This document shows, in pieces, positions 2,032 through 34,076 of a stretch of DNA of 34,658 nucleotides. Under the pieces are notes generated by a model that was given only the letters and a program-made list of their open reading frames with translations, made no database searches and had not been told where the DNA came from. Numbering within the stretch: position 1 is the stretch's first letter; every line of letters starts with the position of its first letter. Made by a program: the position numbers and the translations under genes. Origin of the DNA: an uncultured Clostridia bacterium (lineage in GTDB: Bacteria > Bacillota > Clostridia > Oscillospirales > Oscillospiraceae); NCBI GenBank assembly GCA_946412355.1, contig CAMKGX010000016.1, forward strand, positions 1 through 34,658. The letters run 5' to 3'.

Positions 2032-3120
2032 ATGAAGTACGATCGCACTTTTAACTTCTCCGCCGGCCCCGCCATGATGCCGGAGAGCGTGCTGGAGGAG
2101 ATCCGTGACGAGATGATGAACTACCGCGGCAGCGGCATGTGCGTCATGGAGATGAGCCATCGCTCCAAGGTGTTCCAGCAGATCATCGACGAGGCCGAGG
2201 CCGACCTCCGTGCGCTGATGCACATTCCCGACAACTACAAGGTGCTGTTCATCCAGGGCGGCGGCACGCTGCAATTCGCCATGGTGCCCATGAATCTGAT
2301 GAAGCACGGCAAGGCCTGCTATATCGAGACCGGCACCTGGTCCAAGAAGGCCATCGCCGAGGCCAAAAAGTACGGCGAGGTGCAGATTGTGGCCTCCTCC
2401 GCCGACAAGAATTTCTCCTATATCCCCGACTGCTCCGACCTGCCCATTCCCGACGACTGCGACTACGTCTACATCTGCGAGAATGAGACCATCAACGGCA
2501 CCACCTGGCACAAGCTGCCCAACACAAAGGGCCACGTCCTGGTGTCCGACCAGAGCTCCATGTTTCTCTCCCGCCCCTGCAACGTGGCGGACTACGGCCT
2601 CATCTGGGCCGGCGTGCAGAAGAACGTGGGTCCCGCCGGTATGTCCGTGGTCATCATCCGGGAGGACCTGATTCGTGACGACCTGGATCCCAAAACCCCC
2701 ATTTATATGATGTACAAGACCCACGCCGACAACGGCTCCATGTACAACACCCCCAACTGCTGGGCCATCTACTGCTGCGGCAAGGTGTTCAAGTACCTGC
2801 GCAACCTGGGCGGCCTGGAGGAGATGGAGCGCCGCAATAAGGCCAAGGCCCAGGTCATCTACGACTTCCTGGACAAGTCCAAGCTGTTCCGGGGCGCCGT
2901 GGTGCCCCAGGACCGCAGCCTCATGAACATCCCCTTCGTCACCGGCGACAAGGACATGGACGCCGCCGTGGTGGCCGCCTCCAAGGAGGCCGGCTTCGAC
3001 AATCTCAAGGGCCACAAGAGCGTAGGCGGTCTCCGGGCCAGCGTGTACAACGCCATGCCCATCGAGGGCGCCCAGGCCCTGGTGGCATTCCTGGAAAAGT
3101 TCGAGCAGGAGCACAAATAA
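2032..3120 (+). CDS. serC: Phosphoserine aminotransferase
   Basis: This 362-residue PLP-dependent class V aminotransferase converts 3-phosphohydroxypyruvate and glutamate to phosphoserine and 2-oxoglutarate, the second step of serine synthesis. The N-terminus (MKYDRTFNFSAGPAMMPESV) is typical of SerC. The GGGTLQFAMVPMNL segment matches the cofactor phosphate region and SDQSSMFLSRP the PLP Asp region. The Schiff-base lysine is in AGVQKNVGPAG, and GGLRASVYNAM near the C-terminus is the conserved substrate-binding end. The ATG at 2032 is preferred over an in-frame ATG at 2014 because GCAGGAGGAC lies just before it; the earlier ATG overlaps that site. serA follows after 27 bases, so the two are cotranscribed. 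Confidence 0.97.
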   Translation: MKYDRTFNFSAGPAMMPESVLEEIRDEMMNYRGSGMCVMEMSHRSKVFQQIIDEAEADLRALMHIPDNYKVLFIQGGGTLQFAMVPMNLMKHGKACYIETGTWSKKAIAEAKKYGEVQIVASSADKNFSYIPDCSDLPIPDDCDYVYICENETINGTTWHKLPNTKGHVLVSDQSSMFLSRPCNVADYGLIWAGVQKNVGPAGMSVVIIREDLIRDDLDPKTPIYMMYKTHADNGSMYNTPNCWAIYCCGKVFKYLRNLGGLEEMERRNKAKAQVIYDFLDKSKLFRGAVVPQDRSLMNIPFVTGDKDMDAAVVAASKEAGFDNLKGHKSVGGLRASVYNAMPIEGAQALVAFLEKFEQEHK

Positions 3121-3147
3121 TCGTATTTGAGGAAAGGGGTTATCACT

Positions 3148-4053
3148 ATGCGTATTCTGGTTACCGACGGCATGGATAAGACTGCCCTGGCACAGCTCCG
3201 GGAGCTGGGCCACGAGGTGGTGGAGCAGTTCTATGAGCCCGACCAGCTGGGCGCGGCCCTGCGGGACTTCGACGTGGTGGTGGTGCGCAGCAAGACCAAG
3301 GTCCGCGCCAACCACATCGACGAGGCCAAGGGCGGACGGCTTAAAATGATCATCCGCGGCGGCGTGGGTGTGGACAACATCGACGTAAAGTACGCCGAGA
3401 GCTGCGGCATCGCCGTGAAGAACACCCCCCGTGCCTCCTCCCAGTCGGTGGCGGAGCTGGCCATGGGCCACATGTTCGCCTGCGCCCGGTATCTGTCCAT
3501 TGCGGGCCACACCATGCGGGAGGACAAGTGGGAGAAGAAAGCCTACGGCAAGGGCATTGAGCTCCAGGGCAAGACCCTGGGCATCGTGGGCTTCGGCCGC
3601 ATCGGCCAGCACCTGGGCGTCATGGCCAAGGCCATCGGCATGAAGGTCATCGCCTTCGATATCTTCCACATTCCCGGCATCGAGAAACAGTTGGGCATCC
3701 CCTACGTGGAGATGGACGAGCTGCTGTCCCAGGCCGACTTCGTGTCCGTCCACGCCCCGGCGGTGGACGGCGGCGCCCTCATCAGCGCCGAGAACATCGC
3801 CAAGATGAAGGACGGCGTGTGCATCATCAATACCTCCCGGGGCACCAACGTGGACGAGGCCGCCCTGCTGGCGGCGTTGGAGAGCGGCAAGGTCCGCGCC
3901 GCCGGCCTGGACGTGTACGCCGACGAGCCCGCCACCAATAAGGCCCTCTACTCCCACCCCATGGTGTCCTGCACGCCGCATATCGGCGCCGCCACCGTCG
4001 AGGCCCAAAAGCGCATCGGTGCGGAGATCGTGGACATCGTCAAGGCCATGTAA
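3148..4053 (+). CDS. serA: D-3-phosphoglycerate dehydrogenase, short form
   Basis: This 301-residue D-2-hydroxyacid dehydrogenase is expected to oxidise 3-phosphoglycerate to 3-phosphohydroxypyruvate with NAD, the first step of serine synthesis. The substrate-site motif RGGVGVDNID is near residue 70. The Rossmann motif VGFGRIGQ is near 147-154 and the catalytic His is in TPHIGAAT near 276. It ends directly after the catalytic core and lacks the C-terminal ACT (and ASB) regulatory domains of long SerA proteins, so serine feedback through ACT is not expected. The start at 3148 has AAAGGGG nine bases upstream; an in-frame ATG at 3127 lacks a good site. Its position behind serC supports this substrate over other 2-hydroxyacids. 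Confidence 0.94.
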   Translation: MRILVTDGMDKTALAQLRELGHEVVEQFYEPDQLGAALRDFDVVVVRSKTKVRANHIDEAKGGRLKMIIRGGVGVDNIDVKYAESCGIAVKNTPRASSQSVAELAMGHMFACARYLSIAGHTMREDKWEKKAYGKGIELQGKTLGIVGFGRIGQHLGVMAKAIGMKVIAFDIFHIPGIEKQLGIPYVEMDELLSQADFVSVHAPAVDGGALISAENIAKMKDGVCIINTSRGTNVDEAALLAALESGKVRAAGLDVYADEPATNKALYSHPMVSCTPHIGAATVEAQKRIGAEIVDIVKAM

Positions 4054-4073
4054 CCTCTGCAATCATATAATAA

Positions 4074-4106
4074 AAAGAATCCACCCCCTCGGGGGTGGAT
4101 TCTTTT
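4074..4106. terminator. Bidirectional terminator between serA and the PBP gene
   Basis: A perfect 13-bp stem (4076-4088 with 4091-4103) has an A-run on one side and a T-run on the other. It lies between the converging ends of serA and the penicillin-binding protein gene and can serve both. Confidence 0.85.
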
Positions 4107-4130
4107 GCGTGCGTTATCTTCCCGGCTCTG

Positions 4131-6788
4131 TCATTCTCCGCCTTGTCCGCCGGTCTGTCCGCCGGTTTCCTCGTCGGGCTGCGTCTCCCCGCCCTCCGGC
4201 GGAACCACATCCCCGCCGATGAAGTTGCCAAACTCATCCCACCAGGTGGAGGGGTCGTTGGGGTCAGGCTCCACAAACATAGGCTTGGTGTGCATCACAT
4301 AGTCGTCGTCCTCCGCCACGATCTCCGGGAAATCGGCAAACTGCTCGTCGTCCCGGACATAGTTCAGAATGGCGGAGCCGTCGTGGTAGGTGCAGTATTC
4401 CAAGGGCTGGTTGTCGCTGGCGCAGATTTCCGTCACCACCCGGCTGCCTCTGGGGTCAGCCTCGCAGGCTGTGGTGGCCAGCATGCCGCTGTCGGCGCAC
4501 ACGGTGACGGTGGTCAGGCCGGAGGAGGTGAAGAAGTCCTTATCCGGCAGCTCCGCGTGGATCTGGGACATCACCTTCTGCCACAGCACAGCCGCAGGGT
4601 TGACGCCGCCGGAGCTCACCACGGAGTTGGACTTGTAGCCCACCCACACGGCGGCGCTGTAATAGGGGGAGTAGCCCACAAAATAGCGGTCCTTCAGGTT
4701 GTTGGTGGTACCGGTCTTACCGGCGATGTGCATGCCGCTGAACCGGGCGCTGTAGCCGGTGCCGCCGGAGATGACCTGCTGCAGAATGCTGTTCATAATG
4801 GCGGCGGTGGTGGGCTTCATGGCCACGTTGGAGCGGGCCTCATTCTCCAGCACCACCCGGCCGTTGGCGTCCTCCACCCGCACGAAGGTGCGGGGCGCGG
4901 TATAGATGCCCTCGTTGACGAAGGCGCCGTAGGCCGCCGCCATCTCCTCGGTGGTGACGCCGTACTGGAAGCCGCCCAGGGCCATATTGCCCACCTGCTG
5001 GCTGTCCTCCGCCGTCAGGGTGGTGAAGCCCAGCTTGTTGGTCATAAAGTCGTAGGCGTTCCACACGCCGTATTTCAGGCACACACGCACCGCGCAGGTG
5101 TTCAGGGAGCTGACCAGCGCCGTGCGGATGGGGGTCAGGCCCCGGAAGCGGCCGTTGTCGTTCTTGGGATAGGGCTCCTCGTCGTTCAGCAGCAGCACGG
5201 GGTAGTCGTCCACGGTGCTGGCGGTGGTGATCACGCCGCTGTCCAGCGCCGGGGCGTAGGTGCTGATGGGCTTCACAGCGGAGCCGCAGGGCCGCTCACT
5301 GGTGGCCCAGTTCCAGCCGCGGTCGGCAGTCTTGGGGCCGATGCCGCCCACCAGCGCCACCACGTAGCCGGTGTAGGGGTCCACCACCGTGATGGCGCCC
5401 TGGAGCTGCTCGCCGTCAGAGCGGGTGTAGGGCGCGTTGGACACGTCCTCAAACACGCTCTCGGCGATCTTCTGGTACTCCATCACCTGGGTGGTGTAAA
5501 TCTTATAGCCGTTGCCGTACACCATGTTGATGGCCTGCTCATAGGCGGAGGTCACGTGCTCAATGCCGTCCTTGTCGGTGTAGCGGTTTTCCGTCAGGCC
5601 CAGCTCACGGACCAGCGCCCGGGCCACGTCGCTGATGAGGGCGTCGGTGAAGTAGGAGTTCCACGCGGTGGACACCGGCTTCTCCTTCTCGCCCTCCTCC
5701 TTGATCTCCTCCAGATGCTCGTTGACGTAGTTGCCCAGGTTGGTGTAGCCGTTGGTGAACACGATCTCCTCGTTCCTGGCCTTGTCGTACTCCGCCTGGG
5801 AGATCTTGCCGTATTCCAGCATCCGTTCCAGCACGTCCAGCTGGCGGCCCCGGTTCTGCCTGCGGCTCCAGTCGCTCTCCAGGGGTCCGTAGCGGGAGGG
5901 GTTGTTGGTAATGGAAATCAGGCTGGCGCACTCCGCCAGATCCAGTTCCCTGACGTACTTGCCGAAATACCGCAGCGACGCCGCCTCCACGCCGTAGCAG
6001 GAGCGGCCCAGGTAAATCTCGTTGAGATACGCCTCTAAAATCTCGTCCTTGTCGTACCGCGTCTCCATCTCCAGCGCCCGGTAAATCTCCGTCACCTTGC
6101 GCTTGACGGTGGTCTCGCTGTCCTGGGTCAGGTTCTTAATGAGCTGCTGGGTGATGGTGGAGCCGCCCTGGAGGCTGTTGCCGGGCCCCAGGGTGAACAC
6201 GATGGCACGGATGGTGCCTTTCCAGTCCACGCCCTTGTGCTCGTAGAACCGGTGGTCCTCAATGGCCACGGCGGCGTCCCGCAGATACTTGGGTATCTCG
6301 TCATAGCTGACCCAGATGCGGTCCTCGCCCTCCATAAACAGGGTCTGGTACATGACCCAGTCGCCGCTGGTCTGGTCCTGGTAGTACAGCTCCGTGGACA
6401 CGCTGTTTTCAAACTCGTCGATGTAGACCTCCACGTTGCCCTTCAGCGACGTGTTGACCCACCGCATGAAAATCCACGTGAAGATGGCCACCGTCAGCAC
6501 GCCCACCAGCGCCAGTGTGCCGATGACACCCAGCACCGTGACGCCTCTCTTTTTCTTCCGGGGCCGGCGCTGGGCCGTCTGCTCCTGGCGCGGGGCGGCC
6601 TGCTCCTGACGCGGAGCCGCCGGAGCGGTGCGTGGCGCGGCAGGGGCCTCCCGCCGGGGCCGGTTGGCGGCCTCAAACTGCTGATGCACCGGCGGGTGCA
6701 GGTCCGTGGCCCGGTGGGAGGAGGGCTGTATTCTGTTGGCGCTCTGCTTCTTCTCGCCGTCTCCGTAGACGCGACGTCCTTCACTCAT
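4131..6788 (-). CDS. ponA: Class A penicillin-binding protein (PBP1A-type glycosyltransferase/transpeptidase)
   Basis: This 885-residue bifunctional peptidoglycan synthase polymerises glycan strands from lipid II and cross-links stem peptides outside the membrane. A basic, Ala/Pro/Gln-rich cytoplasmic tail of about 80 residues precedes one transmembrane helix (about 83-106). The GT51 domain follows, with EDHRFYEHKG (near 177), GGSTITQQLIKNL and the segment ending EAYLNEIYLG. The transpeptidase domain has SAVK (near 503, catalytic Ser), SLN (near 559) and KTGTT (near 690). An acidic Gly/Gln/Glu-rich tail ends the protein. The ATG at 6788 has an AAGGAAGG site. It is transcribed alone. The symbol follows Gram-positive PBP1 usage and is not proven orthology. 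Confidence 0.95.
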   Translation of the reverse strand: MSEGRRVYGDGEKKQSANRIQPSSHRATDLHPPVHQQFEAANRPRREAPAAPRTAPAAPRQEQAAPRQEQTAQRRPRKKKRGVTVLGVIGTLALVGVLTVAIFTWIFMRWVNTSLKGNVEVYIDEFENSVSTELYYQDQTSGDWVMYQTLFMEGEDRIWVSYDEIPKYLRDAAVAIEDHRFYEHKGVDWKGTIRAIVFTLGPGNSLQGGSTITQQLIKNLTQDSETTVKRKVTEIYRALEMETRYDKDEILEAYLNEIYLGRSCYGVEAASLRYFGKYVRELDLAECASLISITNNPSRYGPLESDWSRRQNRGRQLDVLERMLEYGKISQAEYDKARNEEIVFTNGYTNLGNYVNEHLEEIKEEGEKEKPVSTAWNSYFTDALISDVARALVRELGLTENRYTDKDGIEHVTSAYEQAINMVYGNGYKIYTTQVMEYQKIAESVFEDVSNAPYTRSDGEQLQGAITVVDPYTGYVVALVGGIGPKTADRGWNWATSERPCGSAVKPISTYAPALDSGVITTASTVDDYPVLLLNDEEPYPKNDNGRFRGLTPIRTALVSSLNTCAVRVCLKYGVWNAYDFMTNKLGFTTLTAEDSQQVGNMALGGFQYGVTTEEMAAAYGAFVNEGIYTAPRTFVRVEDANGRVVLENEARSNVAMKPTTAAIMNSILQQVISGGTGYSARFSGMHIAGKTGTTNNLKDRYFVGYSPYYSAAVWVGYKSNSVVSSGGVNPAAVLWQKVMSQIHAELPDKDFFTSSGLTTVTVCADSGMLATTACEADPRGSRVVTEICASDNQPLEYCTYHDGSAILNYVRDDEQFADFPEIVAEDDDYVMHTKPMFVEPDPNDPSTWWDEFGNFIGGDVVPPEGGETQPDEETGGQTGGQGGE

Positions 6789-12623: not shown

Positions 12624-13667
12624 TCAACTGCGTTTGCGGCGATAGGCCCCGCCGATGACGCACACCACCGCCGCCACAATGGCCACCATGGCCGCGCCCA
12701 CCAGGCCGGACACAGTGGTGCCCGCCGCGGACTCGCTGCCGGGGAAGGCGTAGTCCGGCAGGAAGGACGTACCCTCCTGGATGGAGGCGGCCTTGTCCGC
12801 CGCAGCGCTCTCCACGCCGTAGGCCTCCTCGTCCAGGCCCATGTTCTCGCTGTAACCGGACTCGGCGTTGCCGAACAGGGCCCACTCCAGGCCGTCGGGA
12901 TTGCTGCTGGCCAGCAGGCTCAGCCCGCCGCCCACCAGAATGGTCACCGCCGCCAGAACGGCTACCACGCTCTTCACGGATCGCTTGGCGCCCACGCCCG
13001 CTGCGTCCGCCTCCCGCACCAGCTCCGGCCGTGCGCTGTACACGAAGCACAGCACCGCCGCCGTCACCGCGCCCTCCACCAGGCCGATGGCCAGATGGAT
13101 GGGCTGCATCAGCGCCACGAAGGCGCCGAAGGGCAGCTCGGTGATGCCGGAGAGGCTGGTCTCCAGCACCACGGAGAAGGCGCCCAGCTGCAGCGTCACC
13201 ACGCAGCCGATGACCGACGCGGCGATGATCCGCAGCCGCACCGCCCTGGCGCCGTCGCCAAACCAATGGCTGCGCAGAATGGGCCGCCAGATGAGATAGT
13301 AGCCCACAAAACAGCCGTAAAACGCCATATTCCACACGTTGGCGCCCAGCGCCATCAGTCCGCCGTCAGCAAAAAACAGGCACTGGATGGCCAGAATCAC
13401 GATCATGGACAAAAAGCCGGCCTGGGGCCCCAGCAGGGCCGACAGCAGCAGGCCGCCGCAGATGTGGCCGGAGGAGCCGGTGCCGGGGATGGTGTAGTTG
13501 ATCATCTGCCCGGCGAACACCAGCGCCGCCCCCACCGCCATAGTGGGCAGCTGGGCGGGGTTGTTCTCCTTCTTCAGCTGATGGATGGAGATGCCGGCCG
13601 TAGTGCCGGAGGATGCATACATCACCGCCGCCACAGCGGGGGACAGCAACGCGTCTGCCATGTGCAT
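12624..13667 (-). CDS. cbiM: Cobalt/nickel ECF transporter S-component, CbiM fused to a PDGLE domain
   Basis: This 347-residue metal-specific membrane unit begins MHMADALLSP; in this family Met1-His2 at the free N-terminus form part of the metal site, which fixes the ATG at 13667 (AGGAGGGG upstream). GTGSSGHICGG supplies the second conserved His. Six or more hydrophobic helices follow. After a linker, the C-terminal part has a helix, SSNPDGLEWALFG (the PDGLE motif of CbiN/NikN-like partners), an extracytoplasmic loop and a final helix before YRRKRS. The M and N functions are therefore in one chain. Cobalt versus nickel cannot be told from sequence: no B12-synthesis, urease or hydrogenase genes adjoin, and no cobalamin riboswitch was seen. 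Confidence 0.93.
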   Translation of the reverse strand: MHMADALLSPAVAAVMYASSGTTAGISIHQLKKENNPAQLPTMAVGAALVFAGQMINYTIPGTGSSGHICGGLLLSALLGPQAGFLSMIVILAIQCLFFADGGLMALGANVWNMAFYGCFVGYYLIWRPILRSHWFGDGARAVRLRIIAASVIGCVVTLQLGAFSVVLETSLSGITELPFGAFVALMQPIHLAIGLVEGAVTAAVLCFVYSARPELVREADAAGVGAKRSVKSVVAVLAAVTILVGGGLSLLASSNPDGLEWALFGNAESGYSENMGLDEEAYGVESAAADKAASIQEGTSFLPDYAFPGSESAAGTTVSGLVGAAMVAIVAAVVCVIGGAYRRKRS

Positions 13668-13698
13668 AAATAGCCCCTCCTATGAATAATCTACGGCG

Positions 13699-13727
13699 AG
13701 TATACCCCCATCCTCCAACCCCCGCAA
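13699..13727 (-). promoter_or_regulatory. Promoter of the cbiMQO operon
   Basis: On the minus strand, -35 TTGCGG (13722-13727), a 17-base spacer and -10 TATACT (13699-13704). The palindrome CCCCCCGGGGGG lies just upstream near 13730 and could be a regulator site; the regulator is unknown. Confidence 0.55.
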
Positions 13728-13771
13728 GCCCCCCGGGGGGATAGTATTTGCTGTAAGTCTCCATTCCACGC

Positions 13772-13799
13772 AAAAAGGACGCCCCGCGGGGCGTCCTTT
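13772..13799 (-). terminator. Terminator after the SDR gene
   Basis: A perfect 12-bp stem (13774-13785 with 13788-13799) is followed on the minus strand by T5. It separates the SPT/SDR pair from cbiM. Confidence 0.85.
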
Positions 13800-13820
13800 C
13801 ATTGCTGCAATAGCCGTATT

Positions 13821-14621
13821 CTATTTGGCGTACAGCAGCCCGATGATCCAGTTGCTTACCCCGCAGGGCAGCAGCTTCATCACCACGCAGGCCGCCTTGT
13901 AGGCGAGGCCGATGGCGTACAGGGGCTTGACGCGGCGCCGCAGGGCCAGGGAGGCGATGTACTGTCCCGCCACCGCCGGGTCCATGCCGGTCTGCTCGTC
14001 GTGCTCCATCCGCGCCACGCTGCGGCCGATGCGGCCATCGTAGATGTCGTCCCCCGCCGTCACCTTCTGCCGGGCGGCGGTAAAGCCGGTTTTGATGTCG
14101 CCGGGCTGCACCGCGCACACGGTGACGCCGAAGGGCTTCACCTCATTGGCCAGGGCCATGGTGTAGTCGTTCACCGCCGCCTTGGTGGCGGAGTAAAAGG
14201 CCTGGAACGGGATGGGCACAGGGGCCGCCACGGAGCTTAGATTCACAATGCGGCCCGTCCCCTGCCGCCGCATGATGGGCAGCACGTGGCGGTTCATCCG
14301 CACCATGCCGAAGAAGTTGGCGTCAAAAAGCCGCCGGGCCTCCTCGGTGTCGGTGAACTCGATGGCCCCGGAGATGCCGTAGCCCGCGTTGTTCACCAGG
14401 ATGTCGATGCGGCCCTCCCGCTCCATCACCTGGCGCACCGCCGCCTCCACGGCTCCCTCGTCGGTGATGTCCGCCGTCACGTGGATCAGCCCCTCCACCT
14501 GGCGGTCCCGCCGGGAAAACTCATACACCCGGCAGCCTGCCTCCCGCAGCGCCAGGGCCGTGGCCCTGCCGATGCCGGAGCTGCCGCCGGTGACAATGGC
14601 AATTTTAGGCATGGACGTCAT
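13821..14621 (-). CDS. Short-chain dehydrogenase/reductase, possible 3-ketosphinganine-type reductase
   Basis: This 266-residue classical SDR has the NAD(P) motif TGGSSGIG at 11-18, NNAG at 77-80, catalytic Ser near 129/130, and Tyr143-x3-Lys147 (YSATK). SRR after the second strand suggests NADPH preference. The C-terminal part is hydrophobic (IGLAYKAACVVMKLLP and WIIGLLYAK), as in membrane-associated lipid-acting SDRs. It overlaps the 3' end of the SPT-like gene by 17 bases, so the two are translationally coupled. By analogy with SPT and 3-ketodihydrosphingosine reductase, it would reduce the keto product of the upstream enzyme. SDR membership is certain; the substrate is inferred from the gene pair. 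An alternative ATG lies at 14612. Confidence 0.88.
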   Translation of the reverse strand: MTSMPKIAIVTGGSSGIGRATALALREAGCRVYEFSRRDRQVEGLIHVTADITDEGAVEAAVRQVMEREGRIDILVNNAGYGISGAIEFTDTEEARRLFDANFFGMVRMNRHVLPIMRRQGTGRIVNLSSVAAPVPIPFQAFYSATKAAVNDYTMALANEVKPFGVTVCAVQPGDIKTGFTAARQKVTAGDDIYDGRIGRSVARMEHDEQTGMDPAVAGQYIASLALRRRVKPLYAIGLAYKAACVVMKLLPCGVSNWIIGLLYAK

Positions 14622-15789
14622 ACCGGCTCATCACGTCGGCGATGATGTCCACCGCCTCATCCACCAGGGCTTTGGTGTGGGTGGCCATCAGCGTGCAGCG
14701 CAGCAGGCACTGGCCCGGCGCACAGGCCGGGGGCAGCGTGGCGTTGACGTACACGCCCCGCTGGTACAGCTCCTTCTGAATTTTCAGCGTCGTCAGGCTG
14801 TCGTAGGTGTAAATGGGAATGATGGGGGTCTCGGCGTCGATGATGCTGACGCCCTTTTCGTGGAGCCGGTCCCGCATGTACTGGCTGATGGCCAGCAGCT
14901 GCTGCGGCCGCTCCGGGTGGGCCTCGATGAACCGCAGGGCCGCGTGGGCCACGGCGATGGAAGCCGGGGTCACAGAGGCGGAGAAGATGTAGGGCCGGGA
15001 GTTGGTGCGCACGTACTCGCACACCACGTGGCTGGCGGCCATGTAGCCACCCAGGGAGGCCATGGACTTGGAGAAGGTGCCCATGTAGATGTCCACCTTG
15101 TCCTCCAGGCCGAAGTGGCTGGCGGTGCCCCGTCCGCCCTTGCCGATGACGCCGAAGGCGTGGGCGTCGTCCACCATCACCCGTGCGCCGTATTTCTCCG
15201 CCAGGTCCACAATCTCCGGCAGCTTGCAGATGTCGCCGCCCATGGAGAACACGCCGTCGGTGACGATCAGCGCGCCGGCCTCCTCGGGCACGTGCTGGAG
15301 GCAACGCTCCAGCTCCGCCATGTCGCTGTGGTGGTAGCGCAGCATCTTGCCGTAGCTCAACTTGCAGCCGTCGTAGATGCTGGCGTGGTTCTCCCGGTCG
15401 CAGATCACATAGTCGCCCCGGCCCACAATGGCGCTGATAATGCCCAGGTTGGACTGGAAGCCGGTGGAAAAGGTGACCACGTCCTCCTTGCCCAGGAATC
15501 TGGCCATATCGGCCTCAAACTGCTGGTGCAGCACCAACGTGCCGTTTAAGAGCCGGGAACCGGAACAGCCGGTGCCGTAGTTGTCCAGGGCCCAGTGGGC
15601 GGCCTCAATCATCTCCGGCTCGGTGGTCAGCCCTAAGTAGTTGTTGGAGCCCAGCATGATGCGGCGCTCCCCCTCCATGATGACCTCGGTGTCCTGGCGG
15701 GACTGAAGCTCCCGGAAGTAGGGGAACAGGTCCATGGCCCGCAGTTCTTCCACCTGCTTATATTCATAGCATTTTGTAAAAATATCCAC
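14605..15789 (-). CDS. Alpha-oxoamine synthase, serine palmitoyltransferase-like
   Basis: This 394-residue PLP enzyme of the alpha-oxoamine synthase family condenses an acyl thioester with an amino acid and releases CO2. His135 (NHASI) stacks on PLP, Asp207/His210 (VDDAH) contact the cofactor, and Lys241 in MGTFSKSMASLGG forms the Schiff base. From memory, long stretches resemble bacterial serine palmitoyltransferases: PYFRELQSRQDTEV, FSMGGDICKLPEIV, YIFSASVTPA, ETPIIPIY and LPPACAPGQCLLRCTLMATHT. BioF and 2-amino-3-ketobutyrate ligase are the main alternatives, but no biotin or threonine-dehydrogenase gene adjoins, and a lipid-type SDR does. The start is GTG with AAGGAGAG upstream, behind a strong promoter. 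Family is certain; the SPT assignment is probable. Confidence 0.85.
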   Translation of the reverse strand: MDIFTKCYEYKQVEELRAMDLFPYFRELQSRQDTEVIMEGERRIMLGSNNYLGLTTEPEMIEAAHWALDNYGTGCSGSRLLNGTLVLHQQFEADMARFLGKEDVVTFSTGFQSNLGIISAIVGRGDYVICDRENHASIYDGCKLSYGKMLRYHHSDMAELERCLQHVPEEAGALIVTDGVFSMGGDICKLPEIVDLAEKYGARVMVDDAHAFGVIGKGGRGTASHFGLEDKVDIYMGTFSKSMASLGGYMAASHVVCEYVRTNSRPYIFSASVTPASIAVAHAALRFIEAHPERPQQLLAISQYMRDRLHEKGVSIIDAETPIIPIYTYDSLTTLKIQKELYQRGVYVNATLPPACAPGQCLLRCTLMATHTKALVDEAVDIIADVMSRYDVHA

Positions 15790-15830
15790 TTTCTCTCTCC
15801 TTTTGCGGGATTCACAAATAATGACATTTG

Positions 15831-15859
15831 ATTATATCCCACAAGAGAGGGCAAGTCAA
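15831..15859 (-). promoter_or_regulatory. Promoter of the SPT-like/SDR operon
   Basis: On the minus strand, -35 TTGACT (15854-15859), a 17-base spacer and consensus -10 TATAAT (15831-15836), giving a leader of about 35 bases. Confidence 0.8.
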
Positions 15860-15905
15860 CCGACAAATCCCACAAATGGATATTCCATGCCGTGGGCCGC
15901 CCCAT

Positions 15906-15998
15906 TCAAATGCGGTCCAGGCGGGCAATCAGCCGCACAAAGCCCCGGGTCATGGCGGCAGCCCCCGCCAGGGTAAACAGTAAGCTCAAGCCGGTCAT
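15906..15998 (-). CDS. Possible 30-residue hydrophobic small protein
   Basis: A short frame encodes 30 residues (MTGLSLLFTLAGAAAMTRGF then VRLIARLDRI) with one hydrophobic stretch followed by a basic tail, the pattern of a single-pass microprotein. GAGGAG lies nine bases before this ATG; a second in-frame ATG at 16007 directly touches that site and is less likely. A TATACT hexamer at 16031-16036 (minus strand) and a CTGTCC-N8-GGACAG palindrome (16044-16063) lie upstream. It occupies the gap between the surface operon terminator and the SPT promoter. I do not recognise a family, and chance coding is possible. Confidence 0.4.
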   Translation of the reverse strand: MTGLSLLFTLAGAAAMTRGFVRLIARLDRI

Positions 15999-16063
15999 AT
16001 CGGTCATCTCCTCTCTGAAGTTGACACCAGTATACCGGCTCATCTGTCCCAAATAACGGACAG

Positions 16064-16106
16064 AAAAGCACCCCCGGGCCCTTTTTTTCGGGTCGGGGGT
16101 GCTTTT
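16064..16106 (-). terminator. Terminator of the surface operon
   Basis: AAAAGCACCCCCG (16064-16076) pairs with CGGGGGTGCTTTT (16094-16106), with a C/T-rich loop. It lies ten bases after the LCP gene stop on the minus strand. Confidence 0.75.
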
Positions 16107-16115
16107 ATAGGCATA

Positions 16116-17132
16116 TTATTCCGCGTCCAGGGGCAGGTAGAAAATGTCCACCACCATCTGATACAGCGCGTCTTCGTCGGCGTAGAACTCCGGGGACCGG
16201 TCCTCGCTGTACACCGGCTCGCCCGCGATTTCCCGGATGGGCGTAAAGGTGTAGGTGGTGGCCATGTCCACAAAGCTGCTCAGGGCGTTCACCGTAAAGT
16301 CGGACACCATGTCGTCAGACACAGCGGTGACGATCTGTCGGCTCAGGTCGTCATTCTCCGCCAGCTCCTGGGTGAATTTCTGCTGTAACGCCGTCAGATA
16401 CTGCTGCTGGCGCTTCATACGGTTCAAGTTGGTGGGGTCGGCAAGACCCATACGGGCCCGAACGTAGGTCAGGGCCTGGTCGCCCTGCAACGTCACCGTC
16501 TCCCCCTGCACCAGCGCGCTATCCAGCGCGGACAGGTCGTCCAGCACCGTCACCGTCACGCCGCCCACCAGGTTGTTGATGATGCCCACGGCGTCCATGG
16601 TGACGGAGGCGTAGTGGTCAATGGGCGTGTCATACAGCAGCTCCGACACCGCCCGCACCTGATTGCGGCAGCTGTCCCGGCCGCCGGAGCCGTAGGCGTG
16701 GGCTGTACAGATCTGGCTGTTCAGCGGGGCAAACAGCTCGCCATAGGCGTCCAACTGGTACACCGTGCACATGGTGTCGCGGTTGATGTGCACCGGCGTG
16801 CAGGTGCCGGTGCTGCGGTCCAGCACCAACAGCAGCAGCATATCCGCCTGCTGCCCGTTGACGCCGCCAACGTCGCCGCCGGTCTGGCTCTCGAATTTGT
16901 CCAGGCCCATCAGCAGCACCGTCTCAATGGCGTCGTTTTTGACGTAGCGCCCGCCGTTATACAGCAGCACGTCCGGGTCGTCCCTCTCCGTCACAGAGGC
17001 CGCAGGGACGCTCTGCCGCCGGCTGAGGAGAAAGTGTCCCGTCATCAGTCCTGCCGCCAGCAGGAAGCACGCCAGCAGGACAATGATTATGCTCTTGCCG
17101 TGCCGCCGGGCCGTGGAGGAGTGATGACTCAT
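16116..17132 (-). CDS. LytR-CpsA-Psr (LCP) family wall-polymer ligase
   Basis: This 338-residue type II membrane protein has a short cytoplasmic N-terminus, one helix (about 14-36) and an extracellular LCP domain. Conserved blocks are ETVLLMGLD, GQQADMLLLLVLD, PVHINRDTMC (the Arg/Asp that bind lipid phosphate), a VRAVSELLYDTPIDHY block and the QALTYVRARMGLADPTNLNRMKRQQ tail region split over residues near 225-250. LCP enzymes transfer polymers from undecaprenyl pyrophosphate to peptidoglycan or, in some lineages, to proteins. It is the last gene of the operon, ten bases after the SPQTG protein gene, so it is a candidate for attaching the polymer whose length the first genes control. Its ribosome site is weak (ACAGGG). 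Confidence 0.92.
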   Translation of the reverse strand: MSHHSSTARRHGKSIIIVLLACFLLAAGLMTGHFLLSRRQSVPAASVTERDDPDVLLYNGGRYVKNDAIETVLLMGLDKFESQTGGDVGGVNGQQADMLLLLVLDRSTGTCTPVHINRDTMCTVYQLDAYGELFAPLNSQICTAHAYGSGGRDSCRNQVRAVSELLYDTPIDHYASVTMDAVGIINNLVGGVTVTVLDDLSALDSALVQGETVTLQGDQALTYVRARMGLADPTNLNRMKRQQQYLTALQQKFTQELAENDDLSRQIVTAVSDDMVSDFTVNALSSFVDMATTYTFTPIREIAGEPVYSEDRSPEFYADEDALYQMVVDIFYLPLDAE

Positions 17133-17142
17133 GGCAGCCCTG

Positions 17143-17838
17143 TCAGGCGGCCTTGCGGCTCTTCACCACAAAGGCAGCGCAGGCCACGGCCATCACCGCT
17201 GCACCCAGCAGGTAGGCAGCAGCGGTCATCTCGCCGGTCTGGGGGGAGACGGGGGTCACAGGGGTATCGCCGGTGCCGTTGGCGCTCACCACCACGGCAA
17301 TGGGAACACCCTTATAGCCGGGGTAAGTCACGGGGCCGTTGTTCGTATTCCAGGTCGTGTCGGGCAGATGGTTGGTCAGCTCCAGGGTGGTGGGGGTGGG
17401 CATAATGCCGGTGATGCCGCCGGTGGAGGTGCCGCGCACCCACTTGGAGCCATCGTAGTACAGCACGTACTCAAAGGAATAGCCCCAGGGAATGCTGACG
17501 TTGCGCAGCGTCACCGTGGGATAGGGGCCGCCAGCCATATCCTGGGTGGCGGTGTCGTACACGCCCACGTTGAACACATAGGGCACCTTCTGGTCGTTAT
17601 CCAGCTTCTCGCTGCCGTTAGAGCCGTTGATAAGCTGGTTCAGAATGTCGTTGCTGTCCTCGTTGTCATCCACTCGGATTTCCTGGCCGGAAGGAGCGGG
17701 GGTATCCACACCGATGGAGGCAACCTCCTGGCTGTTCTGCCTATACACCCTGCCGTCGCTGCTGGTGTCGGCGAAGGCCATCACGGACAGGCTTGCCATC
17801 ATCATAACGGCAATCAATAAGGCAACTACTCTTTTCAT
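17143..17838 (-). CDS. Secreted surface protein with SPQTG sortase-sorting signal
   Basis: This 231-residue protein starts with a signal peptide (MKRVVALLIAVMMMASL, cleavage near AFA-DTS). The mature part is of unknown fold with many Asn, Thr and Tyr, and includes YPTVTLRNVSIPWGYSFEYVL. A Thr/Pro linker leads to SPQTGE (198-203), a hydrophobic stretch and a basic end (KSRKAA), the complete arrangement of a sortase substrate. The LPxTG site is the SPQTG variant. I chose the ATG at 17838 since AAAGG sits nine bases before it; an ATG at 17847 overlaps that site. The neighbouring class B sortase is the likely anchoring enzyme. Function of the mature domain is unknown. Confidence 0.88.
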   Translation of the reverse strand: MKRVVALLIAVMMMASLSVMAFADTSSDGRVYRQNSQEVASIGVDTPAPSGQEIRVDDNEDSNDILNQLINGSNGSEKLDNDQKVPYVFNVGVYDTATQDMAGGPYPTVTLRNVSIPWGYSFEYVLYYDGSKWVRGTSTGGITGIMPTPTTLELTNHLPDTTWNTNNGPVTYPGYKGVPIAVVVSANGTGDTPVTPVSPQTGEMTAAAYLLGAAVMAVACAAFVVKSRKAA

Positions 17839-17906
17839 AACATTCATCCTTTCAAATGAAGAATTTATAATACTGCATGGGCGACTCGCCCAGGGGATTA
17901 CGTGTT

Positions 17907-18668
17907 TCAGCCCTTATCCACCGTCTCCACCAGCTTTCCGATCACCAGAAAGCGGTTGGTGCGGTTGGTTTTCAGGCACGTGGAAAGGATCACCAGCTTG
18001 TCGCCCACCTGGGCCGCGGCGTCCTCGTCATAGTTGGCGGCGCTGTCGGTCAGGTCATAGACGGAGTCCAGAAAGGCCTGATACCGCTCCGGGTCGCTGA
18101 AATCATACTGATATAAAATATGCTCGTTGCTGTGGGGCACGGCGGCAAAAATGCGGTAATGCTCCTCCCTGTCCGGCAGATACACCACAAACTCGTTGAT
18201 GTGGGAAAAATCCGCGTCCCCCAGGTACAGGGGCTGCAGCTGGCCGAACATGGCGCCGCTGTTCATGCGGTGGCCGTAAATCACCGTCACCGGGTCGCCG
18301 AATCCATGGTCATTGTACCCCGCCTGGGTAAAGAGGGCGCCGTTGGCAGAAGACCGGCCGTAAATGTCCCGCTTGAGATAGTACTCATCGTCCGTGGGGT
18401 GCTGCACCACCGGGTAGCTGATGTCGGTGCCCGGGATGGCCAGCCAGGCGTAGATGTCGCCGCATTCCCCCTGCCAGTAGGCAAAGTCGATGGGGCTGGT
18501 ATAGGGCACTTCCGGGTCGGGCTGCATCACCGCCTCTGGCACATCCGGCGCCACCGGCGTGCTCACCGGTTCCTTCGCCTTGGGGATGGCCCGGTACAGC
18601 AGCCACAGGCAGGCCAAGCCGCACACCACCGCCAGCGCCGACCATATCCAACGCTTCACGCTGTCCAT
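17907..18668 (-). CDS. srtB: Class B sortase
   Basis: This 253-residue transpeptidase anchors secreted proteins to the cell wall. An N-terminal helix (about 6-26) anchors it outside-facing. The catalytic set is His133 (IYGHRM), Cys231 (LSTC) and Arg239 (NRF). Class B character comes from the DFAYWQGECGDIYAWLAIPGTDISYPV region, the YLKRDIYGRSSANGALF region and the long segment between His and Cys. It starts inside the cpsB stop region (13-base overlap) with GGGAGGA touching the ATG, so translation is probably coupled to cpsB. Its next gene encodes the SPQTG protein, an obvious substrate. Confidence 0.92.
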   Translation of the reverse strand: MDSVKRWIWSALAVVCGLACLWLLYRAIPKAKEPVSTPVAPDVPEAVMQPDPEVPYTSPIDFAYWQGECGDIYAWLAIPGTDISYPVVQHPTDDEYYLKRDIYGRSSANGALFTQAGYNDHGFGDPVTVIYGHRMNSGAMFGQLQPLYLGDADFSHINEFVVYLPDREEHYRIFAAVPHSNEHILYQYDFSDPERYQAFLDSVYDLTDSAANYDEDAAAQVGDKLVILSTCLKTNRTNRFLVIGKLVETVDKG

Positions 18669-19357
18669 TCCTCCCAGTAATCATAGGCCCGGCGGAAAAA
18701 GTCCGCCGCCTCCTGCTGTCCCAGCCGCTTTTCCAATGCCGCGGCCGCCACGTCCATGTTGGGCTTGCGGCTGCTCATGTTGTGGCAATCGGTGCCCACC
18801 ACGTGGACATAGCCCTGCCGCAGCAGCCGGATGGCACCGCCCTGGTGCAGTCCCGGTTTGAAAAAGGAGGCGTTGCACTGAAACACAGCGCCGGCCTGGC
18901 GCAGCCGCTGCCACACGCCGCGCTTCTGGTTTTTCCAGTACCGCTCAATGTGGGCCAGCATCACGGTGAAGCGCCCGCTGCGGCACAAATCCTCCACCTC
19001 ACGGATTTCTCCCTCCGTCCAGGTATTGAAGGGCATCTCCAGCAGCAGCACATTGGTGCCCTCCAGGCAAAGGCGCTCCAGCCCCTCCATGTGGGAAATA
19101 TCCCGGAAGTAATACACCTCCGCCCCCAGCCGTACCCGGGGCATATCCTCCCCCAGCACCGGCGCCAGCCGGGCAAAGGCCCTGGAGCGCCGCTCCAGAA
19201 AATGACGGGGGCTGTTCTCGTTGGCGTAGAAGTGAGACGTCAGCGCCACCAGCTCCACGCCCTGTCGATACAGCGCTCGCAGCATTTCGGCGCTCTCCTC
19301 CACGCTGCGGCTGCCGTCGTCAATACCCGGGAGAATATGGCTGTGAAAGTCAATCAT
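18656..19357 (-). CDS. cpsB: PHP-type protein-tyrosine phosphatase, CpsB/YwqE family
   Basis: This 233-residue metal-dependent phosphatase dephosphorylates the autophosphorylated tyrosines of its partner BY-kinase and so sets polysaccharide output. PHP metal ligands are seen in DFHSHILPGIDDGS (3-16), the TSHF segment, GAEVYY, AHIERY and GTDCHN. The length is close to the usual 240-250. The ATGA overlap with the kinase stop shows tight coupling. It has no relation to low-molecular-weight tyrosine phosphatases of Gram-negative capsule loci, which places the locus in the Firmicutes type. Confidence 0.94.
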   Translation of the reverse strand: MIDFHSHILPGIDDGSRSVEESAEMLRALYRQGVELVALTSHFYANENSPRHFLERRSRAFARLAPVLGEDMPRVRLGAEVYYFRDISHMEGLERLCLEGTNVLLLEMPFNTWTEGEIREVEDLCRSGRFTVMLAHIERYWKNQKRGVWQRLRQAGAVFQCNASFFKPGLHQGGAIRLLRQGYVHVVGTDCHNMSSRKPNMDVAAAALEKRLGQQEAADFFRRAYDYWEEWTA

Positions 19358-20274
19358 TTACCCTTCTTGCCCTCGCGGCGGCGGCCGTTCTCCTCCTGGC
19401 CCCGGGCCGCGCCGGGCTTCTGGGGGCTGGCCTCCACAGTGGCGTTTTTGCCCCTGTTCTTACCGTAGCCGTAACCGTAGCCATATCCGTAACCGTAGCC
19501 ATAACCGTAACCATAGCCGCTTCCGTATCCATAGCGGCCATAGCGCCCGTATCGGCCATACCGGCCATAGCCCTTCTGCTGCTCGGGCATGCCGGTCATC
19601 ACGAAGCCAAGCACCTTATTGCCCAGCACCTCCAACCGATGCATACAGTTGTTCAGCGACACCCGGTCGGAGTAGTTGCTGCGCACCGCCACCACGATGC
19701 CGTTGATAAAGTTGGCAATGGACAGCGCGTCGGACACGATGTCCACCGGCGGCAGGTCGATGACGATGAAGTCATACACCTCGCTCAGCTCGCTCAGCAG
19801 CCGCTCCATCTGGCCCGAGCCCAGCAGCTCCGAGGGGTTGGGGGGCACATCGCCGGCGGGCAAAATGCGGAAATTGGACATAAACCCGGAGGGATGCACC
19901 GCCTTGTTGGCGCTGCACAGGCCCGCCAGCAGGTTGGAAAGGCCGGGCTTCAAGTCCACGCCCAGCTTTTTGGCCACGCTGGGCAGACGCATATCCGCGT
20001 CGATCAGCAGCACTTCCCGGCCCGTCTCGGCTATGGTGTAGGCCAGGTTGATGGCGGTGGTGGACTTGCCCTCGCCCCGGATGGCGCTGGTGACGCCCAC
20101 CAGGCGGCACTTGTTCTCATCCGGCAGGGCAAAAAGCAGGTTGGCGCGGAGCTGCTTATAGGACTCCGCCGCCGTAAAGCTCAGCTGGTCGCACAGCATG
20201 CTGCGCTGCTGCTGGGCGGAGACGCTTTCGGAGCTGCGCCGCCGGGGGCGCGAGAGATTCAAACCCTTAAACAT
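19354..20274 (-). CDS. cpsD: Bacterial tyrosine kinase (BY-kinase), CpsD/YwqD type, with long Tyr-Gly tail
   Basis: This 306-residue cytoplasmic P-loop kinase is activated by its membrane partner (the Wzz-like protein encoded just upstream) and autophosphorylates C-terminal tyrosines. Walker A is SAIRGEGKSTTAINLAY, the second Walker motif LLIDADMRLPS, and Walker B FIVIDLPPVD. Residues about 235-271 are a run of GYG, four RYG and ten YG-type repeats with 15 tyrosines, followed by a basic tail ending GKKGK. Most CpsD proteins have three to five tyrosines here, so this is an extreme case. Start at 20274 (GAGGGGG site) overlaps the wzz stop by eight bases; a longer frame upstream runs into wzz and is rejected. 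Confidence 0.93.
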   Translation of the reverse strand: MFKGLNLSRPRRRSSESVSAQQQRSMLCDQLSFTAAESYKQLRANLLFALPDENKCRLVGVTSAIRGEGKSTTAINLAYTIAETGREVLLIDADMRLPSVAKKLGVDLKPGLSNLLAGLCSANKAVHPSGFMSNFRILPAGDVPPNPSELLGSGQMERLLSELSEVYDFIVIDLPPVDIVSDALSIANFINGIVVAVRSNYSDRVSLNNCMHRLEVLGNKVLGFVMTGMPEQQKGYGRYGRYGRYGRYGYGSGYGYGYGYGYGYGYGYGYGKNRGKNATVEASPQKPGAARGQEENGRRREGKKGK

Positions 20275-21046
20275 CGCTTCTTGCCCCCTCGCTCTTTCTA
20301 CCAGTCTCATAGCCGCCTGCATAGGCGCTTGCGGTATCATGGCGGCTCAGCAAATCAGGAATGGTGCCCAGCACGGGAATCTCAAAGCGCTGCAACAGGT
20401 AGTCCTCATCCCGGATGATGTCGTCCAGCATATCCACCAGCAGCACCACGCCGCAGCTCACCACCAGGCCGATCAGCGCGCCGATCATGGCGTAGCGGCT
20501 GTGGCTGGGGGCCACCCGGCCCGTAGGCACCACGGCCCGGTCCACCACGCTGACGTGGCCGCCGTCCATCACGTCCATGATCTTATCCGGCAGCACGTCG
20601 GCGATCACGTTGGCGATGTGGGCCGCCTCCTCCGGGTCGGTGGAGCGCACCGTGATGGCGAAAATGGGCGTCTCGTTGACGGAACCGGCGGAAATCTTCC
20701 CCGCCAGCTGCTCATAGGTGTAGGGCAAATCGCCGCGCTGAATCACGGCATTCAGCGTGGTGCGGGTCTTCAGGATGACGGTGTAGATGTCCACCAGGCT
20801 CTTGGCGCTGTTGAACTCGCTCATGCTAAAGGTCACCGACGTGCCGCCCAGGGACAGGGAGCTGTTGTTGACGTATAGCAGCGTGCGGGCCTGGTAAGTG
20901 GGCGTCACCATATAGCGGGCATAGCAGTAGCCCATAGAGCCGGCAATCAGCACCGTCAGGGCGATAATGACCAAGTGCTGCCACAGCACACCCACCAGCC
21001 GCAGCAGGTCAATTTCATAAACTTCATCGTTGTTCTGCTGTCTCAT
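20267..21046 (-). CDS. Wzz/CapA-type chain-length and BY-kinase activator protein
   Basis: This 259-residue membrane protein of the Wzz family has two helices: one near residues 21-43 (HLVIIALTVLIAGSMGYCY) and one near 205-228 (YAMIGALIGLVVSCGVVLL). The extracellular part between them shows typical features (VTPTYQARTLLYV, NSAKSLVDIYTVILKT, ITVRSTDPEEAAHIAN). In Firmicutes the cytoplasmic C-terminus of such proteins activates the kinase encoded next. The ATG at 21046 has an AAAGG site; an in-frame ATG at 21106 lacks one. It is the first gene of the six-gene surface operon. Confidence 0.92.
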   Translation of the reverse strand: MRQQNNDEVYEIDLLRLVGVLWQHLVIIALTVLIAGSMGYCYARYMVTPTYQARTLLYVNNSSLSLGGTSVTFSMSEFNSAKSLVDIYTVILKTRTTLNAVIQRGDLPYTYEQLAGKISAGSVNETPIFAITVRSTDPEEAAHIANVIADVLPDKIMDVMDGGHVSVVDRAVVPTGRVAPSHSRYAMIGALIGLVVSCGVVLLVDMLDDIIRDEDYLLQRFEIPVLGTIPDLLSRHDTASAYAGGYETGRKSEGARSDV

Positions 21047-21139
21047 GTGAAAAAACCTTTCTGTCTCTGTTGTCGCCAGGTCAAAGACCTCTCCGCGCCA
21101 GCGCAAAGGTCCGCTTTGAGCCTATTATATAACAGTGGT

Positions 21140-28426: not shown

Positions 28427-29155
28427 TTATCTGTCTGCAATAAAGAGCTGAAAGGCGATTTCCGCCTGTTTCTGCAACAATTTCCGGCCGTCCATTGCCG
28501 TCAATCCACGCCGCTGCGCCTCTGTCACCAGCGCGGTAGGCTCCGGGCCATACACCATATCAAATACAATAGAATTGTTCTGTAATCCATCCAGAAAGTC
28601 AGAATCCTGCCACTTTTCGCCGCCAATCATACCCAAAGGCGTGGCGTTCACCAGAATATCGCATTCCGCGGCCAAAACTTCCAGTTTTTCCCAATTATAC
28701 TGCTCCTCTTTTGGGTGTCGGCAGCACACCTTCACCGTCGCCCCGGCCTGGGACAGGGCGTAGGCCGCCGCCTTTCCCGCGCCGCCAAAACCCAGTATTA
28801 GAGCCGTTTTTCCCGCCACGGGCATGGAAAGCGCTTCCAGCAGCCCCGGGGCGTCCGTATTGTGGCCGGCAGCCCGCCCGTGGTGAATGACCACCGTGTT
28901 GACCCCGCCGATTGCCTTTGCGGTGGGGGACAATTCATCCAGCAGCGGCAAAATCGCCTCCTTGTGGGGCATGGTCACATTAAACCCGTCCCAGGACCCC
29001 GCCTTGGCGGAATTGACAAATTCCGGTAATTCCTCCGGCAGCACCCGCACCGCGGAATAGCAGCCCGCTGTTCCCGCTTTTCGCAACAATTCCGTGTGAA
29101 TTTCTGGGCTTTTGCTGTGGGAAATGGGGTTTCCGATAACGCAAAGCCGTATCAT
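28427..29155 (-). CDS. aroE: Shikimate 5-dehydrogenase
   Basis: This 242-residue enzyme reduces 3-dehydroshikimate to shikimate with NADPH. SHSKSP (12-17) binds substrate, Lys65 in NVTMPHK and Asp101 in HNTDAPG form the catalytic pair. GFGGAGKAAAYAL is the dinucleotide loop and LVNATPLGM the following conserved strand. It is somewhat shorter than the usual 270-290 residues. The last gene of the aro operon, its ATG overlaps the aroQ stop by four bases. Base composition is more A/T-rich than its neighbours aroB and aroC, hinting at different constraints or origin. Confidence 0.95.
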   Translation of the reverse strand: MIRLCVIGNPISHSKSPEIHTELLRKAGTAGCYSAVRVLPEELPEFVNSAKAGSWDGFNVTMPHKEAILPLLDELSPTAKAIGGVNTVVIHHGRAAGHNTDAPGLLEALSMPVAGKTALILGFGGAGKAAAYALSQAGATVKVCCRHPKEEQYNWEKLEVLAAECDILVNATPLGMIGGEKWQDSDFLDGLQNNSIVFDMVYGPEPTALVTEAQRRGLTAMDGRKLLQKQAEIAFQLFIADR

Positions 29156-29571
29156 GCCAACATCTCCATTGCCTTACAATATCCATCTATTCCCAATCCG
29201 CAGACCATCCCCCGGCAGGCCGGGGCGGTGACTGACAGATTTCTCCATTTCTCCCTTGCGTGGATATTGGAAATATGTACCTCTACCGCCGGGGTGGACA
29301 CAGAACGCAAAGCGTCATGAATGGCATAGCTATAATGGGCATAAGCGCCTGGATTGATGACAATTCCGTCATATTTTCCGTCACTTTCCTGAATGACGTC
29401 GATGATGTCGCCCTCGTGGTTGCTTTGGTAAAAAGTGGCAGAATGGCCGCGTGCCTCCGCCCAGGTTTTCACCGTCTCACACAGGTCGTCGTAGGTGGCG
29501 GCGCCGTAGATCTCCGGCTCTCGGCGGCCCAAAAGGTTGAGATTTGGGCCATTTATGATTAGAAAGCGCAT
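29152..29571 (-). CDS. aroQ: Type II 3-dehydroquinate dehydratase
   Basis: This 139-residue enzyme dehydrates 3-dehydroquinate to 3-dehydroshikimate; type II enzymes form dodecamers. INGPNLNLLGRREPEIYG carries the conserved Asn, Arg and catalytic Tyr. YQSNHEGDIID, INPGAYAHYSYAIHDAL, and VEVHISNIHAREKWR with the catalytic His are all present. I start at the ATG at 29571 with GGAGGGAG upstream; a TTG start five codons earlier overlaps that site. The gene overlaps aroK by 13 bases and aroE by four. Confidence 0.95.
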   Translation of the reverse strand: MRFLIINGPNLNLLGRREPEIYGAATYDDLCETVKTWAEARGHSATFYQSNHEGDIIDVIQESDGKYDGIVINPGAYAHYSYAIHDALRSVSTPAVEVHISNIHAREKWRNLSVTAPACRGMVCGLGIDGYCKAMEMLA

Positions 29572-33955: not shown

Positions 33956-34076
33956 CCTCCGGCTAAGCCGGAGGCTTGATTTCGCCCTATAAGGGCATTT
34001 AACCAGCAGCCCCTTAAGGGGCCCGAATGGTTTGCCGACCGCGCATTCATCTCGGGCCGCCCCTAAAGGGGCTGCT
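33956..34076. mobile_element. Structured right end of an IS200/IS605-family element
   Basis: Stretch after the tnpA stop with stacked hairpins: CCTCCGGC/GCCGGAGG (33956-33974), GCCCT/AGGGC (33984-33996) and a larger fold in which AGCAGCCCC (34005-34013) pairs with GGGGCTGCT (34068-34076) around two GCCCC/GGGGC hairpins. IS200/IS605 ends carry such subterminal hairpins, recognised by TnpA on single-stranded DNA. The exact element boundary is unknown; it lies near 33950. The other end is beyond base 34658. Confidence 0.6.

Follow-up and report, generated by a model that had tools for sequence, protein, structure and literature searches.

Organization of the locus

The DNA analysed here, referred to as the window, is a stretch of 34,658 nucleotides from an uncultured Clostridia bacterium of the Oscillospiraceae, and constitutes contig 16 of a 2.06-Mb assembly with 96.5% completeness. 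It carries two overlapping genes, encoding an alpha-oxoamine synthase (AONS) of the serine palmitoyltransferase (SPT) type and a classical short-chain dehydrogenase/reductase (SDR), which we think probably cooperate in making a sphingoid base. The features of the locus are as follows.

14605-15789, minus strand: SPT-type AONS, 394 residues, GTG start; pyridoxal phosphate (PLP) lysine K241, A271 at the SPT-type alanine position
13821-14621, minus strand: classical SDR, 266 residues, candidate 3-ketosphinganine reductase; TGGSSGIG, NNAG and YSATK motifs, two predicted C-terminal helices
14605-14621, minus strand: overlap of the AONS and SDR reading frames, 17 bases
15797-15801, minus strand: ribosome-binding site AGGAG, 7 bases 5' of the AONS GTG, read by eye
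15831-15859, minus strand: sigma-70-like promoter TTGACT-17-TATAAT, by consensus match only
13773-13800, minus strand: terminator-like palindromic hairpin of 12 pairs, from RNA folding; its five-U run is mostly paired within the stem

A preliminary description of this DNA had noted the 17-base overlap, and both minus-strand reading frames do lie where it placed them; the overlap shrinks to 8 bases if the SDR begins at its second methionine, as several homologues do. The synthase motifs quoted there (PYFREL, LPPACAPGQ and MATHT) are present in the translation. The promoter, described as strong, matches the consensus at 11 of 12 positions, sits about 40 bases upstream of the AONS start and is the single site of its kind in 13600-16150, where 0.5 would be expected by chance. 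As to the terminator also described, minus-strand RNA from 13812 to 13765 folds into a 12-bp hairpin 3' of the SDR (-25.4 kcal/mol, z -4.2, equalled by 0 of 200 shuffles), but the predicted stem takes up most of the U run and a terminator pattern scan 3' of the SDR listed none there. Being a palindrome, the hairpin could work on either strand.

Relationship of the synthase to serine palmitoyltransferases

The best profile, the best PDB match and the best fold of the AONS are all SPT, and together with the active-site residues considered below they bear out the resemblance to bacterial SPT that had been proposed. The protein aligns without gaps to the SPT of Sphingobacterium (PDB 3a2b), window residues 1-390 corresponding to 4-393. 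Profiles of related enzymes score below their cut-offs: 381.6 bits for BioF (TIGR00858, cut-off 426), from which the AONS is also separate in the tree; 318.5 and 389.9 bits for KBL (TIGR01822, cut-off 493; NF005394, cut-off 460); 380.7 bits for TIGR01825 (cut-off 535); and 208 bits for the CqsA/LqsA autoinducer synthases (NF005526, cut-off 428).

A tree of 74 rows gathers all 20 Clostridial rows in a single clade (support 100/100), unites the SPT side as a whole at 100/100 and places KBL and TIGR01825 apart. The sister of the Clostridial clade (95/95) comprises the Sphingobacterium enzyme, two Bacteroidota rows above the curated SPT cut-off, and proteins of B. finegoldii, Prevotella and Parabacteroides, which themselves exceed that cut-off. 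This tree thins 15 Clostridial and 7 Bacteroidota rows and omits seven long or short-covered ones (E. coli BioF, two BioF, one BioF-like, Rubrobacter and two alpha-proteobacterial SPT); when all of these are included, in a tree of 103 rows, the SPT rows also stay together (SH-aLRT 100, 68 rows). No CqsA row was part of either tree. Uniting the Clostridial AONS with KBL/TIGR01825 is rejected by the approximately unbiased (AU) test (p 1e-8), which covered the KBL and TIGR01825 rows only. The preliminary description had named a firm position inside BioF or KBL as one outcome that would speak against it; the AONS falls on the SPT side (100/100), outside both. Under the tree model used, its ancestry is firmly placed on the SPT side, and a sister relationship to the Bacteroidetes SPT is suggested by support values only.

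Active-site residues

Window numbering equals the Sphingobacterium SPT number minus 3. Twelve AONS residues (N49, Y51, G77, S78, H135, S182, D207, H210, T238, S240, K241 and R364) match those of SPT, and the surroundings of several of the matching residues, with bound serine and PLP, have been described (PMC10196870). The column of A271 holds alanine in 70 of the 71 Clostridial rows, with threonine in the remaining one, and in all 41 other SPT-side rows. Outside the SPT side it holds threonine in 10/10 BioF-type rows (nine BioF rows and E. coli BioF, one gene being present twice and one row itself unchecked against the BioF cut-off), threonine or serine in 23/23 TIGR01825 rows, and asparagine in 13/13 KBL rows. 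In SulA a lysine, Lys281, is reported at the position that alanine occupies in bacterial SPT (PMC9304779). Judging by the equal spacing (+30) to the PLP lysine, that position would correspond to A271 of the AONS, so that the SulA/CFAT marker is absent and alanine stands in its place.

The reductase partner

All three SDR motifs (TGxxxGxG, NNAG and YxxxK) are intact in the window protein, which identifies it as a classical SDR, and two extra C-terminal helices are predicted. Across 25 aligned rows Ser130, Tyr143 and Lys147 are invariant; NNAG is NCAG or otherwise in many of them. The SRR following the second strand suggests NADPH as the cofactor. The fold search returned general SDRs (best 3m1a), and the best of the 226 NCBIfam matches is the 3-ketodihydrosphingosine reductase KdsR (NF049977), slightly above general oxidoreductase models (227 bits). 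The reading as a ketosphinganine reductase is based on gene order, on the intact motifs and on this best but sub-threshold match, gene order being the stronger evidence.

Conservation and distribution of the pair

The pair is common among Clostridia of the gut and the rumen. Relatives of 61-99% identity are encoded by 44 of 48 loci from genome contigs, one of them truncated. Near-identical loci (99%) occur in metagenome-assembled genomes named Oscillospiraceae (goat reticulum) and Ruminococcaceae (RUG11024); assemblies titled Lachnospiraceae and other Clostridia carry the AONS as well, and one locus is titled Sutterella. Of 71 distinct Clostridial loci, 60 have the SDR directly 3' of the AONS and in the same orientation (64 of 75 rows, less four duplicate rows, each of them SDR-positive). 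The genes flanking the pair vary between clades. A conserved third gene was sought near the pair and none was found: the largest neighbour family beyond the two, which includes frames overlapping the AONS, occurs in 10 of 49 sources (the 48 loci and the window), and the rest in at most 9. This survey relied on crude longest-reading-frame calls, which are unreliable in GC-rich loci and retained the AONS itself in only 39 sources.

Among 150 genomes sampled from the host family, 54 have the AONS at E <=1e-100 (37 of the 97 high-quality ones). Its presence in a two-contig assembly of the host genus makes contamination unlikely. Five of the 54 matches contain one in-frame stop inside the matched range, one of these in a one-contig assembly. 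The nonsynonymous rate (dN) is below the synonymous rate (dS) in every pair with estimable dS among 8 AONS and 6 SDR sequences. Relatives, recurring gene order and dN < dS show that the locus is conserved beyond chance.

Two loci outside this set were also observed. The Priestia megaterium plasmid CP109762.1 encodes, within 2629-6215 of the extracted locus, an SPT-type AONS of 46% identity, representing a second Firmicute lineage on the SPT side; it lies near an Acyl_transf_3 acyltransferase and a methyltransferase, with no annotated SDR within 5 kb. In a genome drawn from the Bacteroidota (locus L110 of G180, 886-2667), a partial SDR match (33% over 178 residues) lies just downstream of an SPT-like gene, and the SPT-SDR order may therefore exist outside Clostridia.

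A ceramide-synthase-like GNAT

A gene of one GNAT family adjoins 28 of 38 distinct non-Clostridial SPT-side loci (39 rows, one contig being represented twice; many are closely related, and a contig end truncates one GNAT match). The order is epimerase-like (by eye), SPT, GNAT in a Deltaproteobacterium; SPT, GNAT, epimerase-like, CDP-alcohol transferase (the last by eye) in a Bacteroidota genome near Sphingobacterium; and SPT, GNAT, epimerase-like, LTA synthase on a Rubrobacter plasmid. These arrangements fit the spt-bcerS-cerR set, which we take to be the bacterial ceramide set of Caulobacter type. By size, domain and order we assign the GNAT and epimerase-like genes as putative bCerS and CerR; if correct, the GNAT neighbours bear independently on the function assigned to the SPT side. 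The same gene set has been used to recognise ceramide makers (PMC11334938). No such GNAT was found within 4 kb of the SPT of B. finegoldii and P. distasonis, which a diacylglycerol-kinase-like gene adjoins.

Queried with the Deltaproteobacterial GNAT, the host genome yields a full-length homologue of 28% identity (G000:C42:11437-12609), unlinked to the AONS/SDR pair. Homologues also occur in two other tested genomes of the host genus; none was found with this query in nine other AONS-positive genomes of the family. The host protein, which no NCBIfam model matched, shares 41% identity over 380 residues with the GNAT adjoining the curated SPT of a Bacteroidota genome (G186), and the two group together in the GNAT tree. 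The union there has 16 rows, in which 14 Clostridial members of the family are joined with the G186 gene and a row from genome G368 at 100/99 (93/56 without G368); the chosen outgroup does not fall on one side and several branches are long, and only the 100/99 union is used here. In G368, the one genome of another family with both SDR and GNAT, the SDR again adjoins an AONS.

The host-type GNAT is present in 5 of 150 family genomes, from three genera, and all five are AONS-positive (hypergeometric 0.005), the GNAT and AONS counts coming from the same sample as judged from genome handles. Of 30 relatives, 16 are SDR-positive, and 14 of these have the GNAT as well; it also occurs in 2 of the 14 that are SDR-negative (p 0.0001), one of these two being a weak 26% match. 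Both p values ignore kinship, and within the host genus alone the association (13/15 versus 2/4) is not significant (p 0.18).

As a separate observation, the GNAT gene and a small gene for a phosphopantetheinyl transferase are divergently oriented (locus L209 of G000:C42, 6297-8113), as they are in 8 of 14 other genomes compared; this arrangement may or may not be meaningful.

Discussion

What could be the product of the overlapping gene pair? The sequence evidence supports the earlier interpretation that it serves sphingoid base synthesis, and we regard a 3-ketosphinganine-type synthase with its reductase as the probable identity of the two enzymes. From the observed ancestry, active-site residues, gene order, distribution and GNAT co-occurrence we infer the amino acid, the acyl donor and its chain length, the substrate and cofactor of the SDR, a third step and the final lipid. 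With L-serine bound on PLP at Lys241, the AONS would carry out a condensation with a long-chain acyl thioester in which CO2 is lost and an amino ketone of the 3-ketosphinganine type is formed. Reduction of this ketone by the overlapping SDR, with NADPH as the probable cofactor, would yield a sphinganine-type amino alcohol. The unlinked bCerS-like GNAT of the host genus may N-acylate this base to a dihydroceramide. A mixed route of this kind, in which SPT and a linked classical SDR would follow the eukaryote and Bacteroides order of steps and the unlinked GNAT ceramide synthase would be bacterial, is a tentative suggestion for de novo dihydroceramides in the host genus, to which we give somewhat less than even weight; it goes with the suggestion that other Oscillospiraceae and Lachnospiraceae obtain free or differently acylated bases from the pair.

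Several observations weigh against sphingoid base synthesis. On the SPT equivalog of CFB type (NF047600) the AONS scores 521.5 bits against a curated cut-off of 640; two other Clostridial rows reach 508 and 555 bits, and the cut-off is narrow, being attained by 2 of 80 Bacteroidota genomes. A topology that sets the Clostridia apart from every other SPT-like row is not rejected by the AU test (p 0.097), so that nesting within SPT is not proven. Three residues differ from the Sphingobacterium enzyme: N50 (Ser53), S76 (Ala79) and I268 (Met271), the last of which acts in SPT via its main chain (PMC10196870). The SDR reaches 240 bits on KdsR, where the cut-off is 400; since 0 of 80 Bacteroidota genomes attained it, this model is of no help in placing the SDR. 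A neighbouring SDR is absent from 11 of the 71 Clostridial loci, among which two pairs are close relatives. Finally, no such GNAT turned up in 49 of the 54 family genomes that have the AONS; ceramide formation by this enzyme is therefore not general, and other Clostridia would have to proceed by other means or end the pathway with the base.

The most substantial alternative, although unlikely, is that the SPT-like AONS prefers alanine, glycine or an unusual acyl group, the pair making a 1-deoxy base or another amino alcohol. SPT accepts alanine and glycine at lower efficiency, and its Ala79 reportedly interacts with the side chain of the amino acid via a water (PMC10196870); the Clostridial clade is separate and has Ser76 at this position in 71 of 71 rows. 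Serine or threonine is, however, also found there in all 27 other Bacteroidota rows, most of which adjoin ceramide-synthase-like genes, and N49, Y51, G77, S78, S182, T238, S240 and K241, matching the residues around bound serine and PLP, are retained. Cysteate as the amino acid would make the pair a sulfonolipid (capnine) system, which likewise uses an AONS and a ketoreductase. Capnine reductase homologues have been recorded in 14.4% of Firmicutes and 12.3% of Firmicutes_A genomes (PMC11211663), where profile searches may also catch the AONS/SDR pair; with alanine at the position of the SulA lysine, we give this explanation hardly any weight.

A signalling hydroxyketone of CqsA/LqsA type had been raised in the preliminary description. 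On this view the AONS would supply an amino ketone of short or medium chain length, and the SDR would convert it to the diffusible signal. This would suit a two-gene unit with no conserved lipid gene adjoining and an enzyme from the fold family that includes CqsA; at 208 bits against a cut-off of 428, it appears weak and quite improbable. The notion of a housekeeping BioF or KBL next to an unrelated SDR draws on scores that are not negligible (382 bits for bioF, 390 for KBL model NF005394), but these are under the cut-offs of 426 and 460, and the tree, the residue columns and the AU test against KBL/TIGR01825 oppose it, leaving it largely refuted and very improbable. BioF, KBL, CqsA and SulA identities of the AONS were set aside on profile scores, residue columns, tree and fold, the AU test bearing on KBL/TIGR01825 only.

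The surroundings of the pair include further gene groups. Upstream, 16116-21106 (minus strand) encodes a LytR-CpsA-Psr protein, a sortase, a CpsB/CapC-type protein, a frame judged by its sequence to be a CpsD-like ATPase, and Wzz, a group that controls capsule or exopolysaccharide formation. The idea that the pair is connected with this group or with cobalt-uptake neighbours was dropped because neighbours vary among relatives. A shikimate cluster comprises shikimate dehydrogenase (28427-29155), dehydroquinase (29152-29586), EPSP synthase (31255-32385) and dehydroquinate synthase (32382-33410), and within it the chorismate synthase carries a fused chorismate mutase domain of type II (30053-31333, minus strand). 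An IS200-like (Y1) transposase frame (34076-34561, minus strand) lies close to the contig end.

Like other Oscillospiraceae, the host should be without an outer membrane. Sphingolipid detection in bacteria has been largely limited to Bacteroidota and some alpha-Proteobacteria (review PMC10191378). A Black Sea study reported SPT-like genes from 38 phyla (PMC11334938); its main text, in the portion available, does not contain the words Firmicutes, Bacillota or Clostridi. A literature search over titles and the beginnings of abstracts, with few subscription papers, returned no report of SPT activity, sphingolipids, an SPT-SDR operon or such a clade for gut Clostridia. Work on gut microbial sphingolipids mostly treats them as Bacteroidota products, and in at least one study Bacteroides spt genes serve to measure them (PMC12816596). 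If the tentative suggestions on dihydroceramides and other acylated or free bases hold, Clostridia would be an overlooked source of sphingolipids in gut and rumen. Should sphingoid bases be made by Oscillospiraceae and Lachnospiraceae too, the wrong bacteria may have been credited with some host effects and metagenomic associations, and a second, independently evolving enzyme pair would be open to study.

Comparison with known systems

The closest counterparts of the AONS are the SPT of Sphingobacterium multivorum (PDB 3a2b, 8guh) and of Bacteroidales, with which it shares full-length similarity at 46-50% identity, the same PLP residues, most of the tested serine-site residues, the nearest fold and a sister-clade position. 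It differs in belonging to a separate Clostridial clade below the curated SPT-CFB cut-off. The neighbours differ too: the Clostridial AONS adjoins an SDR, the Bacteroidales SPT a diacylglycerol-kinase-like gene, and other SPT CerR- and bCerS-like genes.

With the spt-bcerS-cerR set the host genus shares an SPT-type enzyme and a bCerS-like GNAT; the Clostridial GNAT is unlinked and mostly not found, and the reductase is a classical SDR, not epimerase-like. The SDR resembles, in a comparison by description, the 3-ketosphinganine reductase BT_0972 of Bacteroides thetaiotaomicron (PMC9278070), likewise a classical SDR of similar size with Gly-rich and YxxxK motifs that acts at the expected next step. 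BT_0972 is unclustered with its SPT (PMC9278070), whereas the AONS and SDR genes described here overlap. The enzymes would be of known kinds, and what appears new is the Clostridial clade, the overlap between SPT and SDR genes and a cell type that probably has no outer membrane.
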